Source: a virus. Taken from it: a stretch of DNA of 30,821 nucleotides. Each line of letters opens with the position of its first letter. The stretch's first letter is position 1. Below the pieces are notes generated by a model. The model searched no databases. It worked only from the letters and a program-made list of their open reading frames with translations, and was not told the origin of the DNA. The position numbers and the translations under genes were made by a program. Of this stretch, positions 12,097 to 30,819 are shown piece after piece. The DNA is taken from positions 1 through 30,821 of IMG/VR virus record IMGVR_UViG_3300039098_000033; one strand, given 5' to 3'.

Positions 12097-12884
12097 TCTA
12101 TATCACAAAAGATGAAACTATAAATTTTGAAGATTATGGTTATATATTAAAAACAATATCATATCCCGAACTTCCATCAATTAGAAATTCAAAAGAAAGT
12201 GTAATTGGAAAAGATGGACAATATATATTTAAAGATGGTTTAAATAATAAAACATTATCTGTATTATTAACACAAATTGATTCATCAAGTTTATTAATGA
12301 GACGAGGTAATGCAAGAGTAATTAAACAAATTTTATTGAAATCAGGCAAATTAATATTAGATTATGAACAAAATATATTTCATAATGCTAATGTATTAGC
12401 AGGCGCTAATATTAAATTTAATGCCAGTTATGATGAATTAACTATTGCATTTGATATTGAGCCAGTTGCATATTCTGTAATTGATAAAGATGTAACTTGG
12501 GAAACTTTAGATGTTCCCTGGGCTAGTATAGACTTACCGTGGGAAGCAATTGGTGGTGGATTTGAATTTGAATTATCAACACCTGGGGATATTATCGTTA
12601 ATAACTATGGAAATTATATTGCTAAATCAATAATTAAAATTATTACTAATGGAGATATTGAATTAACAAAAGGAACGGAAAGCTTTAATTTAACTGGAGC
12701 TGGAACCTATTATATTGATACGAAAAATCACATTGTGTACGATGAAAATAATTTAAATAAAATAGCAAATATGAATAATGATGGTATTTTTTTAAAATTA
12801 GATCCAGGAGCAAATGCAATTAATGTGAGCGGAAGTTTTACAACTGCAAGTATAGAATTTTTTAATAAGGATGCTTATGTATAA
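12093..12884 (+). CDS. Distal tail protein (Dit)
   Basis: A 263-aa protein of the Sipho_tail type that forms the hub between tail tube and tip. The N-terminal domain contains SIRNSKESVIGKDGQYIF and the strand-rich segment KTLSVLLTQID, as in Dit proteins, with IAFDIEPVAY near the end of that domain. The second half is a beta-sandwich-like domain around the linker TPGDIIVNNYGNY. It starts inside the tape measure stop (ATGA) and is followed by Tal, the normal order at the tail tip. Confidence 0.88.
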   Translation: MIYITKDETINFEDYGYILKTISYPELPSIRNSKESVIGKDGQYIFKDGLNNKTLSVLLTQIDSSSLLMRRGNARVIKQILLKSGKLILDYEQNIFHNANVLAGANIKFNASYDELTIAFDIEPVAYSVIDKDVTWETLDVPWASIDLPWEAIGGGFEFELSTPGDIIVNNYGNYIAKSIIKIITNGDIELTKGTESFNLTGAGTYYIDTKNHIVYDENNLNKIANMNNDGIFLKLDPGANAINVSGSFTTASIEFFNKDAYV

Positions 12885-18653: not shown

Positions 18654-18866
18654 ATGATAACATTAAGCGAAAGTAAAAAATGGAATGAACGCATAAAATT
18701 TAACAGAATTAACAACAGAAAGAGTCAGCAGCAATTAGCAAACGATATCGGAGTTAGTTTAAGAACAATACAAAGATGGGAAAAGGGAGAGACTAAACCA
18801 TATCCGAAAATCAAAGAAAAGATAGCAGCAATATTAAATTTAACTGTAGAAGATATATTCAATTAA
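18654..18866 (+). CDS. Cro-like XRE-family regulator
   Basis: A 70-aa helix-turn-helix protein of the XRE (Cro/CI) class. The HTH covers about residues 24-47: SQQQLANDIGVSLRTIQRWEKG, with QQ at the start of helix 2 and RTIQRW in the recognition helix. It lacks a C-terminal dimerisation or cleavage domain, so it is Cro-sized and not CI-sized. GAGAGGAG precedes the ATG. It has its own promoter and terminator, and the repeats in both flanking promoters suggest it controls itself and the early operon. No separate CI-type repressor was seen. Confidence 0.9.
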   Translation: MITLSESKKWNERIKFNRINNRKSQQQLANDIGVSLRTIQRWEKGETKPYPKIKEKIAAILNLTVEDIFN

Positions 18867-20802: not shown

Positions 20803-22404
20803 TTGAATAAAGTTGATAAAATAAGAGAATTTAACAATGCTGGAGTTATTGAACCAAAAAAACTATTAGAACATTTCAAACACATTAAAAGTAAAAGATT
20901 TATTAAAAAAATAAAAGAATATGCAAATGAGAATATATTTATTGATCATCGGTATTTATTCATAAAAAAAGAAAAGAAAAATATATACGCAAAATGTTCT
21001 CACTGTGGACATGTTAAAACAATTGATAAAGTTCCAAAACAAAGAAGTGTTGAATACTGCGAAAAATGTAATTCAAAATTATATGTTAGAAATATAAAAT
21101 ACGGAAACTTTGCAGATTGGTCTTATTTAGAATATATACACTTTGATCAATCCAGCTTAGACAAAAATATTTTGATAGCATATCAATTTGGAATTAAAAG
21201 GAATATAGACGGAAATGAGAAAGATATAAATAGTGTTGGAATAAGAGATGAAATTAGCATAACGGGATATTATTATTTTGATTTATATTCAAAAAGTAGA
21301 GTTATTGAAAACTGTGCATGGAGCCATGGAGTGGATATGAAACAATCAGTATTTATAATAAATGCAGCTAGAAGTTATATGTGGGGTTATTCTTTAGAAT
21401 CGCTAGAAGAAGTAATTGAAAAAACGGATTTAAAATATTCTGAATATGAAACGTTTTTAGCAAAAAGAGGACAGAATATAATAAAATATTTAGATACATA
21501 TTGTAAACATCCTCAAATTGAATATATGATGAAAAGTGGATTCGAAAGATTAATAACCGGATACATTGAAGGGCAAAGCACATATCGCACGATAAATTGG
21601 AGAAGCAAGACATTAAAAGGAATGTTAAAATTAAACAAAAATGAAATAGAATTATATAAAAAGGAATATTACAATTCTAACAAGAATGAATTTACTAATC
21701 AATTTGCTAATTTAAAAATAATTCAAATTTTAAAAACTAAAAAATGGATAAACGAAGAAGATATTAAAGCTGCTAACGAATTAAAAATATTTTGCAGAAC
21801 AATGGATGAAGTGGATGAAACATTGAGAATTGATAGACCAAGTAGAATTTTAAAATATCTAAAAAGACAATTAGAAGATACTAACAATTATTTAAATCTT
21901 AGAGAGGTGTATTTAGATTTTTACGATTTGATAAAAGATATGAAAATTTTGGAAATGGCAATAAATAAAAAAACGCTTTATTATAAAGATTTAAAAAGAC
22001 ATCATATGAACATATCAAAACAAATTAAGATAAAAGTAAATTTAGAATATGATAAAGAAATAGAAGGGAGGCTATCAAAATTAAATAAATATGAATTTGA
22101 AAATGAAAAATTTATATTATCACCGGCCAAAAGTACAGAGCAATTAATATTAGAAGGTAAAATATTAAAACATTGTGTCGGAGGTTATGGAGAAAGGTAT
22201 AAAAATGGTAAAACGAATATATTTTTATTAAGAGAAAAACAAAATATTTACGAACCATTTTTCACAATCGAGATAGATATTGGATTTAAAAAGATAATTC
22301 AATGTCATGGAAAAAGCAATATTACTATGGAAAGTGATAAAGAAGTTGAAATATTTTTAGAGAATTTTAAAAAACAACTATTAAATAAGAAAGAGAAGGT
22401 GTAA
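20803..22404 (+). CDS. PcfJ-like protein with zinc ribbon
   Basis: A 533-aa protein starting with TTG after AAAGGAAGGAGTTAAT. An N-terminal zinc ribbon has Cys at about 65, 68, 86 and 89 (CSHCGH and CEKC). The C-terminal 110 residues match the PcfJ-like domain: LEGKILKHCVGGYGERY (H457-C458), GKTNIFLLRE, EPFFTIEID, and IQCHGKSN. The middle is long, charged and helical. PcfJ is a plasmid protein of unknown molecular function; in phages it is common in the early region. Adjacency to the PcfK-like gene suggests they act together. Confidence 0.82.
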   Translation: MNKVDKIREFNNAGVIEPKKLLEHFKHIKSKRFIKKIKEYANENIFIDHRYLFIKKEKKNIYAKCSHCGHVKTIDKVPKQRSVEYCEKCNSKLYVRNIKYGNFADWSYLEYIHFDQSSLDKNILIAYQFGIKRNIDGNEKDINSVGIRDEISITGYYYFDLYSKSRVIENCAWSHGVDMKQSVFIINAARSYMWGYSLESLEEVIEKTDLKYSEYETFLAKRGQNIIKYLDTYCKHPQIEYMMKSGFERLITGYIEGQSTYRTINWRSKTLKGMLKLNKNEIELYKKEYYNSNKNEFTNQFANLKIIQILKTKKWINEEDIKAANELKIFCRTMDEVDETLRIDRPSRILKYLKRQLEDTNNYLNLREVYLDFYDLIKDMKILEMAINKKTLYYKDLKRHHMNISKQIKIKVNLEYDKEIEGRLSKLNKYEFENEKFILSPAKSTEQLILEGKILKHCVGGYGERYKNGKTNIFLLREKQNIYEPFFTIEIDIGFKKIIQCHGKSNITMESDKEVEIFLENFKKQLLNKKEKV

Positions 22405-22405
22405 G

Positions 22406-23332
22406 ATGAATAAAGAAATAGAAAATATCAGGAATGGAAATGTAATAGCAACTGAAATAAATTTTATAAAAAAACAAACTAATAAATTATTATTACAAAG
22501 TTCTATTGAAATAGGCAAAAAATTAAAAGAAGCAAAAGAAATAGTGGGCCATGGAAATTGGTCGGACTGGTTAGATCATTATGTGAATTATAGTCAAAGA
22601 ACAGCATCAAATTTAATTAAAATTTATGAAGAATATGATGTTAATATCATTGGAAAAGAAGAGAAACCAAATTGGCAAGCGCTTGCCAATTTGGGCTATA
22701 CACAAGCAGTTGCAATGCTTAAACTTGATTTTGAAAACCGCGAAAATTTTATAGAAGAAAATAATATAGAGATTATGTCGACTAGAGAATTAGAAACTGC
22801 TATAAAAGAGAAGAATGATATCTTAAAAGAGAAGAAGATATTAGACGAAAAAGTAGAATCAATGATTGAAGAAAAAACAAAAAACGATACAACTATTAAT
22901 GAACTTAAAAAGAAAAATAAAGAATTAGAAAAGACAATTAAAGAGATGGAAGAAATCGAAAAGAAAATAGAAGAAACTACATCAGGTGGGGATATGGATT
23001 TAGATGAACTCGAAAAAATGGAAAAAGATTTAAAAAAAGCAAAAGAGAAAATAAAAAAACTACAAAGCGAAGCGAAAATAAAACCAAAAGAAGTAGAAGT
23101 TATTAAAGAAGTGGAAGTAATTCCTGAAGAAGTAAAAATTGAAATAGAGAAACTAAAAAATAAAATTAAAGCTTCAGAAAATGCAATAAAATATAAAGCT
23201 AATTTCGAAGTAATTAAAAATTTATTCAATGAATTGATTTCAATACTAGAAGAAATGAAAACATATGATAAAAATGAATATGAAAAATATAAAGGAGTAA
23301 CTAATAAATTATTAGATATGCTAAAATTATAA
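22406..23332 (+). CDS. DUF3102 protein with long coiled coil
   Basis: A 308-aa protein. Residues 8-70 match DUF3102: NVIATEINFIKKQTNKLLLQ, IEIGKKLKEAKEIVGHGNW and WLDHYVNYSQRTASNLIKIY, a region resembling a DNA-binding helical domain. PNWQALANLGYTQAVAML follows. Residues about 120-290 form a Lys/Glu-rich coiled coil. Function of DUF3102 proteins is unknown; they occur in phages and mobile elements, often with replication or partition genes. The start overlaps the PcfJ stop region by spacing of one base, so the genes are coupled. A 28-bp perfect palindrome lies inside it. Confidence 0.8.
   Translation: MNKEIENIRNGNVIATEINFIKKQTNKLLLQSSIEIGKKLKEAKEIVGHGNWSDWLDHYVNYSQRTASNLIKIYEEYDVNIIGKEEKPNWQALANLGYTQAVAMLKLDFENRENFIEENNIEIMSTRELETAIKEKNDILKEKKILDEKVESMIEEKTKNDTTINELKKKNKELEKTIKEMEEIEKKIEETTSGGDMDLDELEKMEKDLKKAKEKIKKLQSEAKIKPKEVEVIKEVEVIPEEVKIEIEKLKNKIKASENAIKYKANFEVIKNLFNELISILEEMKTYDKNEYEKYKGVTNKLLDMLKL
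22667..22694. repeat. Perfect 28-bp palindrome inside the DUF3102 gene
   Basis: The 14-bp arm CCAAATTGGCAAGC is followed directly by its exact reverse complement, centred at 22680/22681. No loop and no T tract follow, so it is not a terminator. It encodes part of the PNWQALANLGY stretch, which is typical of the protein family, so protein constraint explains some but not obviously all of the symmetry. It may be a dimeric protein binding site. Confidence 0.9.
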
Positions 23333-25377: not shown

Positions 25378-25396
25378 AAAGCTAAAAAGTAAACAT

Positions 25397-25457
25397 AAAA
25401 AAAACCATCACCGAGACCAATCGATAAACAGTTTTAGTACTTAAATTAATTAAGCTT
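25397..25457 (-). ncRNA. Possible minus-strand small RNA (anti-repeat-like)
   Basis: On the minus strand a promoter is plausible: TTGCTT (plus 25487-25492), a 17-bp spacer and TAAAAT (plus 25464-25469) with an extended TG. Transcription would start near 25457 and run through AAGTACTAAAAC, the complement of GTTTTAGTACTT, to a U run at 25397-25404. The RNA, about 61 nt, would end in a weak GU-containing stem. Anti-repeats of type II CRISPR tracrRNAs also end in ACTAAAAC. It is a hypothesis; a 10-mer like this can occur by chance in AT-rich DNA, and no nexus hairpin is clear. Confidence 0.2.
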
Positions 25458-25490
25458 TATCTTATTTTATCACAATTACAAAGAAAAAGC

Positions 25491-25512
25491 AAAGCCTTAA
25501 ATAGAAGGCTTT
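25491..25512. repeat. Hairpin in candidate origin
   Basis: AAAGCCTT (25491-25498) pairs with AAGGCTTT (25505-25512) across a 6-nt AAATAG loop. On the plus strand it is followed by only four T residues and then CCCCC, so a terminator is possible but poor. Because it lies near the rep gene it could be the nicking hairpin of a rolling-circle origin. Confidence 0.6.
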
Positions 25513-25547
25513 TCCCCCTTGGTAAAGGTATTAATTAAAGGACCATA

Positions 25548-25576
25548 ATAGAATATAAATAGAATAGAAATAGAAT
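25548..25576 (+). repeat. Three iterons, 11-bp period, upstream of rep
   Basis: ATAGAAT occurs at 25548-25554, 25559-25565 and 25570-25576, each separated by a 4-bp AT-rich spacer, giving an 11-bp period near one helical turn. They lie just upstream of the rep ribosome binding site, so a bound Rep protein could both mark the origin and repress its own gene. The short motif in an AT-rich genome lowers confidence, but the exact phasing is notable. Confidence 0.65.
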
Positions 25577-25590
25577 AGAAAGAGGTATGT

Positions 25591-26316
25591 ATGCCATATA
25601 TAAAAAAAATAATAATAGCAGGTAGAACAAAAGAAATAATAAAAATATATAGTAGTAGATACGGAAAAAGAGGAATAACAAGAGGGAAGAATATAAATGC
25701 AACACCAGAAGAAGTTAGAAGAGTTAATCAGAGAAATGCAGAAACGAAATTAAGACACTTGCTAAATACTAATTTTGGTAAAAATGATATTCATATGGTA
25801 TTGACATATAAAAAAAAGGAAAGACCAGATCCGGAGCAAGGAAAGAAAAATCTTAAAAATTTTATAAGAAGAATAAAAAGAGTTTATGATAAGAAAGGAA
25901 TAGAATTTAAATATATTACAGTAACAGAATATAAAACTGCAGCTATACATCATCATTTAATTGTCACAGGAATAGATGTAAGATTAATACAAGATAAATG
26001 GCCTTTTGGAAAAGTGAGACCAACATATATGGATGATACAGGAGAATATAGTAAACTCGCTAATTATTTAATTAAAGAAACCTCTAAAACATTTAATAGT
26101 GAAGAGAAGATATTTAGTAGAAGATATGGCCGCAGTAGAAATTTAAAACAGCCTAAAATAATTACTAGAATTGTAAAATCTAAAACTTTTAGGGAAGATC
26201 CAAAACCGGAAAAAGGATATTATATAGAAAAAGATAGTATCAGAAATGGAGTGCATGAAGTGACAGGAAGAGTATATCAATTTTATCGAATGATTAAGAT
26301 TGATCGGTGTTGGTAA
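25591..26316 (+). CDS. HUH-type rolling-circle replication initiator (Rep)
   Basis: A 241-aa protein with the three motifs of HUH nickases: motif I HMVLTY (68-73), motif II IHHHLIV with metal-binding His 120 and 122, and motif III NYLIKE with catalytic Tyr 159 and Lys 162. It would nick one origin strand, stay covalently bound through Tyr, and prime rolling-circle replication using host proteins. Only one catalytic Tyr is evident. No helicase domain is fused. Upstream iterons and the gene-free region suggest its origin. ATG 25591 follows AGAGGT. It is the only recognised replication protein in the window, unusual for a tailed phage of this size. Confidence 0.85.
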   Translation: MPYIKKIIIAGRTKEIIKIYSSRYGKRGITRGKNINATPEEVRRVNQRNAETKLRHLLNTNFGKNDIHMVLTYKKKERPDPEQGKKNLKNFIRRIKRVYDKKGIEFKYITVTEYKTAAIHHHLIVTGIDVRLIQDKWPFGKVRPTYMDDTGEYSKLANYLIKETSKTFNSEEKIFSRRYGRSRNLKQPKIITRIVKSKTFREDPKPEKGYYIEKDSIRNGVHEVTGRVYQFYRMIKIDRCW

Positions 26317-27454: not shown

Positions 27455-27640
27455 ATGAATAAATATAAAATATGTGGAATTGTAGATAAAGGAAAATTAA
27501 ATAATAACAATTTAATAACAGCAGCATGTAATATGCATGTTGCAGAATTAGATGATCTATACCAAGCAGCAAGAATTGCGGTACCTTGCAAGAATGGCAA
27601 ACCAATATCATTAATAGCAGAATTAAGAAAAGGGAATTAG
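27455..27640 (+). CDS. Hypothetical protein
   Basis: A 61-aa protein with two Cys and an NNNNL run, preceded by AAAGGAGTGAGTA. No family recognised. Confidence 0.65.
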   Translation: MNKYKICGIVDKGKLNNNNLITAACNMHVAELDDLYQAARIAVPCKNGKPISLIAELRKGN

Positions 27641-29439: not shown

Positions 29440-29763
29440 ATGGCAAAATCATGGGCGAAAAAGTTTTATCATTCAATAGGGTGGGAAAAAGTAAGAAAAT
29501 TATGTCTTATTAGAGATCATTATTTATGTCAAGAATGTGGAGAAGCAGCATATATAGTTCATCATATTATTGAATTAAATCCTGAAAATATTAAAGATCC
29601 AAATATAACATTAAATTTAGACAATTTGAAATGCGTATGCAAAGCATGTCATGATGAAATTCATAGTGTGTGTCAAAGTAAATCGACTATTGATAATATC
29701 AAATTTGATGAGAATGGTGATATAATAGAAATAAGAAAACCGGAGAATTTGAGGAAGGAGTAA
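29440..29763 (+). CDS. HNH endonuclease (packaging-associated type)
   Basis: A 107-aa HNH nuclease. Zinc-binding Cys at 30 and 33 (CQEC) and 67 and 70 (CKAC) frame the site; catalytic HH at 41-42 (IVHHIIEL), Asn 62 (NLDNL) and CHDEIH near 70-75 complete it. HNH proteins next to terminase genes work with the large terminase in cos-site cutting and packaging in HK97-like phages. On a circular or concatemeric molecule it lies about 1.1 kb upstream of the small terminase. GAGAGGTGATAA precedes the ATG. Confidence 0.92.
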   Translation: MAKSWAKKFYHSIGWEKVRKLCLIRDHYLCQECGEAAYIVHHIIELNPENIKDPNITLNLDNLKCVCKACHDEIHSVCQSKSTIDNIKFDENGDIIEIRKPENLRKE

Positions 29764-30805: not shown

Positions 30806-30819
30806 ATAGGCCCCCCTAT
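30806..30819. other. Candidate cos site: GC-rich dyad at right end
   Basis: ATAGG-CCCC-CCTAT is a 14-bp dyad; its GGCCCCCC core is the longest pure G/C run I see in this very AT-rich sequence. It lies at the extreme right end, downstream of the HNH gene, so on a circle directly before the small terminase, where cos sites occur. GC-rich overhangs are common in cos phages of low-GC hosts. Cut positions cannot be read from sequence. Confidence 0.5.

Follow-up and report, generated by a model that had tools for sequence, protein, structure and literature searches.

A predicted HUH initiator with a putative upstream origin as the sole recognizable replication gene of an HK97-type siphovirus genome

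How might a tailed double-stranded DNA phage copy its genome when the only replication gene that can be recognized in it encodes a predicted rolling-circle initiator? Most laboratory-studied phages of this kind bring a helicase loader or more. The question is raised by the rep gene of the viral record analyzed here (the window), which is a whole contig of 30,821 bp. The original prediction placed the ORF at positions 25378–26316, and a protein with HUH motifs I–III that ends at 26316 is indeed present. Translation of this stretch, however, revealed ~10 in-frame stop codons before position 25591, which is the real start. The rep gene occupies 25591–26316 on the plus strand and encodes a protein of 241 amino acids, and the 213 bases from 25378 to 25590 are non-coding and likely contain the origin. 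Upstream of rep, on the same strand, lie genes for a PcfJ-like protein (20803–22404; PF14284, E = 4e-25) and a DUF3102 protein (22406–23332; PF11300, E = 1.3e-45), which together span 20803–23332 and are recurrent neighbors of rep and of each other in relatives. A PcfJ-like gene was found near rep in 12 of 57 and 4 of 22 related loci, and the complete trio recurs in loci L089, L009, L042, and L067.

A profile search against HUH Rep families, as the original prediction had proposed, placed Rep in the PF23343 / PHROG 3584 family. The Pfam scan matched PF23343 (REP_ORF2-G2P) with an E-value of 1.8e-13 and a score of 51 bits, the cut-off being 27.8, and the PHROGs search matched phrog_3584, named "replication initiation protein," over residues 1–239 (E = 2.1e-59). 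The PF23343 profile was also found in 62 of 63 Rep homologs, and PF01446 (Rep_1), PF01719 (Rep_2), and PF05840 (Phage_GPA) were unmatched by Rep in Pfam searches up to E = 1. Motif I reads HMVLTY (residues 68–73), motif II IHHHLIV (119–125), and motif III YLIK (159–162). Among 83 deduplicated homologs, Tyr159, the catalytic tyrosine proposed earlier, was invariant, as was H122 (83/83 each), while H120 and K162 were conserved in 82 and 80 sequences, respectively; H120, H122, Y159, and K162 are therefore our candidates for the catalytic residues. Residue 163 is Glu in the window (YLIKE), Glu in 21 of the 83 homologs and Tyr in 34, and with Glu at this position the window's Rep is a single-tyrosine enzyme. 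An AlphaFold2 model of Rep (pLDDT 94.1, pTM 0.90) displays the central β-sheet of the HUH fold and gave Foldseek matches in a viral library down to E = 3e-28, with siphovirus replication proteins first and microvirus initiators next. The best matches of the model in the PDB were SIRV1 ORF119 (a viral Rep protein), the nuclease (origin-binding) domain of AAV Rep, and geminivirus Rep, all of them weak (E ≥ 6.7e-3), and sequence searches of the PDB using Rep, as a single sequence or as profiles, returned no significant match. Taken as a whole, these computations indicate that Rep is an HUH endonuclease of the PF23343 / PHROG 3584 family.

The surrounding genome is that of an HK97-type siphovirus (Caudoviricetes). 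Genes for the terminase large subunit, portal, prohead protease, HK97-type capsid, and tape measure were found, no sheath gene was recognized, and the order is TerS-TerL-portal-protease-MCP, followed further on by Rep and then HNH. All three packaging genes are on the plus strand: a probable terminase small subunit (TerS; 55–420; phrog_1066, phrog_2343, and its position before TerL), the large subunit (TerL; 421–2190; phrog_9, E = 1e-133), which is the proposed consumer of concatemers, and the HNH endonuclease of the HK97-type cos packaging module (29440–29763; PHROG HNH / terminase small subunit matches). Outside the tail region almost every ORF was scanned against PHROGs and Pfam, which yielded head, tail, and lysis genes, a Cro/CI-like regulator, PcfJ, DUF3102, a DNA methyltransferase, DUF4406, and HNH. 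In agreement with the original prediction, no polymerase, helicase, loader, SSB, or recombinase was recognized in the 30.8-kb record, leaving rep as its sole recognizable replication gene, and searches of the whole record for DnaB (DnaB_C), SSB, IstB/DnaC, and PolA gave no match. No integrase was recognizable among the window's ORFs, yet a Cro/CI-like regulator is encoded at 18654–18866. GC skew was considered as a sign of unidirectional replication and rises steadily along the whole genome, yet it is uninformative because almost every gene is on the same strand. We consider it very likely, with a probability of roughly 0.87, that Rep initiates rolling-circle replication of the phage from an origin that closely precedes rep.

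A tblastn search of Rep against 50,697 phage records gave 17 matches, indicating that the protein is rare among deposited phages; among them are siphophages isolated from Butyrivibrio, Latilactobacillus, and Terrisporobacter, whose copies of the gene carry a replication-protein annotation. The cultured siphophages Arawn, Idris, Terrisporobacter TPDSL_ph2, and the Latilactobacillus TMW phages have this one-gene layout too, whether or not an SSB is also encoded, which speaks against its being exceptional. Matches to DnaB, a loader, or PolA were absent from all 26 Rep-bearing phage, plasmid, or viral records (the window and 25 others, some of them fragments, with Arawn, the Latilactobacillus and Terrisporobacter phages, and the Paraclostridium phage-plasmid in the set), and an SSB was found in 13 of the 26, the window not among them. 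Rep also occurs in a sheathed phage, Dulem virus 34. When 84,980 genomes of bacteria and archaea were scanned once with only two short patterns, 57 Rep loci emerged, nearly all in Clostridia and many in Lachnospiraceae. Tailed-phage head genes lay within the fetched stretch at 30 of these 57 loci, a lower bound since other terminase types are missed, such as the different terminase family of L008. L008 (697–14942), the closest phage relative, encodes ParA, ParB, and a serine integrase. At 12243, in opposite orientation, it has another origin-like motif, which is weaker (19.5 bits).

Among 72,556 records there was one plasmid match to Rep, L090 (NZ_CP124276.1), the 33.9-kb Paraclostridium sordellii plasmid unnamed3. 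It is itself a complete HK97-type phage-plasmid and carries ParM, a LexA-like repressor, a Rep of the same family, and a weak origin-like site. A plasmid source for the module was rejected, the sole plasmid match being a phage-plasmid. The description of the module as plasmid-like was also imprecise: the plasmid Rep families PF01446 and PF01719 were unmatched, and searches by sequence and by structure point first to tailed phages and next to initiators of Microviridae; the latter being the nearest kin outside tailed phages, "microvirus-like" is the better term.

The main rival to a rolling-circle account of phage replication is that Rep and its origin maintain the genome as a plasmid (phage-plasmid) or in an early circular form, whereas lytic synthesis depends on an unrecognized initiator, theta replication driven by the host, and subsequent recombination. 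The ParM gene of the P. sordellii plasmid beside its full siphovirus module, the ParA and ParB genes of L008, and the window's want of a recognizable integrase are all consistent with such a state, and a theta initiator could be hidden among the small orphan ORFs. Nevertheless, the window contains no recognizable second initiator, helicase, or recombinase, and the related records contain no recognizable DnaB, loader, or PolA; many Rep-bearing relatives reside in bacterial contigs or possess integrases, which would make a plasmid replicon needless; and Arawn and Idris grow lytically with no other replication initiator annotated. We therefore regard the plasmid-like account as unlikely.

Rolling-circle origins are commonly located upstream of rep (PMC5703833). 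In the upstream regions of the relatives a recurrent pattern was spotted and then refined into a matrix of 28 nt with the sequence CACTTGATAAAAGTATTAACTTACCGAC or close to it, which mostly lies 36–80 nt before the rep start codon and whose most constant letters are CTTG...TATTA...GAC. In 75 of the 86 relatives the motif upstream of rep exceeded the 99% shuffle threshold. The remaining 11, including TPDSL_ph2 and the Paraclostridium phage-plasmid, fell below the threshold of this gapless matrix, some of them showing by eye a motif shifted by an indel; the site of Dulem virus 34 is weak. Since the first matrix had been trained on the same loci, a held-out matrix was built only from loci whose Rep is <43% identical to that of the window. 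It scored the window site at 25516–25543 (plus strand; CCCTTGGTAAAGGTATTAATTAAAGGAC), which begins 75 nt before the rep start codon, at 27.8 bits, and the runner-up in the genome, both strands considered, reached 8.2 bits. A single outstanding site, upstream of rep, was likewise present in each of Arawn, the two Latilactobacillus phages, and L089, although their sites may be within the held-out training set. The motif is kept in intergenic DNA even beside Reps of ~30% identity (L005 and L006). A scan of all IMG/VR contigs for a 20-base core, in which Rep was not required, returned 20 stretches, every one of them 42–77 nt upstream of rep and on the same strand, some in contigs that had been recognized before as Rep loci.

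A hairpin with an 8-bp stem and a 6-nt loop precedes the window's motif at 25491–25512 (plus strand), 5 nt before the CTTG nick core. Hairpins of varying sequence precede the motif in most loci, 59% having z < -1.5 compared with 26% of control stretches. The motif core of the relatives, CTTG^ATA, is the same as in the annotated origin of phiX174, whose record places the origin at the base right after CTTG, and CTTGATA is also contained in pC194 and is the published Rep_1 nick sequence (PMC10378824). The window has G in place of A directly after the nick core (CTTG^G), a position at which other relatives vary too. These sequence features suggest that a double-strand origin is likely at 25491–25543, consisting of the hairpin followed by CTTG^GTAAAGGTATTAATTAAAGGAC. 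By analogy with the phiX174 origin, the nick is predicted to fall after G25521 (CTTG^GTAA). The hairpin is probably part of the origin but could alternatively end upstream transcription. Between the motif and the rep start are three 11-bp direct repeats of AATAGAATAGA (25547–25581, plus strand), identified by Tandem Repeats Finder and spaced by about one helical turn; their conservation was not seen in relatives, and they are possible Rep-binding or regulatory iterons. A mini-hairpin presenting the G of CTTG in its loop (CCTT-GGTA-AAGG in the window) was considered and set aside: a 4-bp stem could be formed at 15 of 48 distinct sites versus 7.3 expected from swapped arms, a merely suggestive excess given that the sites are not independent.

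Could the 28-nt element instead be a regulatory site, such as a repressor operator or the rep promoter, that is never nicked? Its distance from the rep start codon, mostly 36–80 nt, is what would be expected of an operator, and the hairpin may be an upstream terminator. On the other hand, the element is not palindromic, its constant letters resemble the nick regions of phiX174 and pC194, and its core was never found without rep in the IMG/VR scan. A purely regulatory role thus seems improbable, slightly more so than the plasmid-like state.

A further explanation is that the contig is a fragment and that a full replisome is encoded in missing sequence. Consistent with a fragment, the contig has no terminal repeat and its record gives no completeness estimate, but its length and gene order match those of the complete circular genome of Arawn (31,118 bp), itself devoid of a replisome, so that a missing replisome is very unlikely. 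The contig end also adjoins a C6 run (30811–30816) in the gap separating the HNH gene from the TerS gene, the expected place for cos ends. Arawn and TPDSL_ph2 have C runs in the corresponding gap (HNH to TerS/TerL) as well, and this gap is possibly the cos region. Least probable is that Rep is a relaxase nicking an origin of transfer for conjugal mobilization of the phage genome, as a weak similarity to a Pfam relaxase (E = 6.2e-5, just under cut-off) and the nearby PcfJ-like protein, named from a conjugative plasmid, might hint, for Rep scores far better against the replication-initiator profiles of PF23343 and PHROG, only 3 of 63 homologs show the relaxase match, the conserved site resembles replication nick sites, and no other transfer genes were recognized in the window.

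Under rolling-circle initiation by Rep, which offers the simplest account, the genome would circularize and Rep would bind the origin (the hairpin at 25491–25512 plus the nick region at 25516–25543), expose CTTG^GTAA, and nick after G25521, whereupon Y159 would become joined to the 5′ end. The 3′ end would then be extended by host helicase, SSB, and DNA polymerase III, and continued rolling would generate head-to-tail concatemers to be cut and packaged by HNH, TerS, and TerL. Computation establishes the family, motifs, and fold of Rep and the presence, uniqueness, and conservation of the origin-like site. We infer the use of host enzymes, the chemistry and position of the nick (from the protein family and the sequence), and the concatemer step (from established terminase biology). 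The earlier suggestion that rolling-circle concatemers would suit the terminase is a sensible one, as an HUH initiator is here combined with an HK97-type (HNH-TerS-TerL) siphovirus.

The phages that bear Rep are diverse: HK97-type phages with and without an SSB, a phage with a different terminase family, a sheathed phage, and a phage-plasmid. Tentatively, and at somewhat less than even odds, the HUH protein and its hairpin/CTTG origin may constitute a compact, self-sufficient replicon that has been exchanged between tailed phages of Clostridia and lactobacilli with no other relationship to one another. Rolling circle would in that case be the whole replication program, delivering concatemers straight to the terminase with no theta phase, phage helicase, or recombinase. 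In a large and poorly explored group of phages from gut and rumen, a single nickase of 240 residues plus an origin of ~50 bp seems to suffice. The predicted origin offers an exact nick position for testing and a sequence handle by which rolling-circle tailed phages may be recognized in metagenomes, and rep with its origin is a candidate small replicon for Clostridia, which are hard to engineer. The initiator family is already annotated in relatives, whereas the conserved origin appears to be undescribed as far as a limited literature search goes: no description of it in tailed phages was found, and the paper on Arawn and Idris does not mention replication.

Among known systems, gpA of the P2-type myoviruses is likewise an HUH initiator in a tailed dsDNA phage, but it is larger and has two catalytic tyrosines, and the window's Rep does not match PF05840. 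HUH Reps are listed for some Myoviridae in a survey that names this family, and not siphoviruses, among the dsDNA viruses using them (PMC6668415). The pC194/Rep_1 plasmids share the nick core CTTGATA with the window's relatives, and such origins are commonly upstream of rep, but PF01446 is not matched by the window's Rep. Initiators of Microviridae (Dulem virus 77, gokushovirus VP4, and phiX174 gpA) are the nearest kin outside tailed phages in both sequence and fold, and phiX174 shares the CTTG^ATA-type nick core with the window's relatives. Microviridae, however, make single-stranded circles for packaging, whereas the window is a dsDNA genome with a terminase, and motif III of the phiX174 type has a second tyrosine where the window has Glu at 163 and 34 of 83 homologs have Tyr. 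The replication proteins of PHROG 3584 and PF23343 are matched by the window's Rep at full length in PHROG and with all HUH motifs, but these family names are silent on an associated origin and on the tailed-phage context. Closest to the window are the Butyrivibrio phages Arawn and Idris (Arawnvirus), whose gp43, a "replication initiation protein," is 38–40% identical to the window's Rep. Unlike the window, which has no recognizable SSB, Arawn encodes two SSB homologs and a reverse transcriptase. Both phages are, like the window, siphoviruses of ~31 kb with the same module order and no annotated helicase or polymerase, and Arawn shares the upstream motif, which lies at 27,552–27,579 of NC_048848, scores 39.7 bits, and is unique in its genome.
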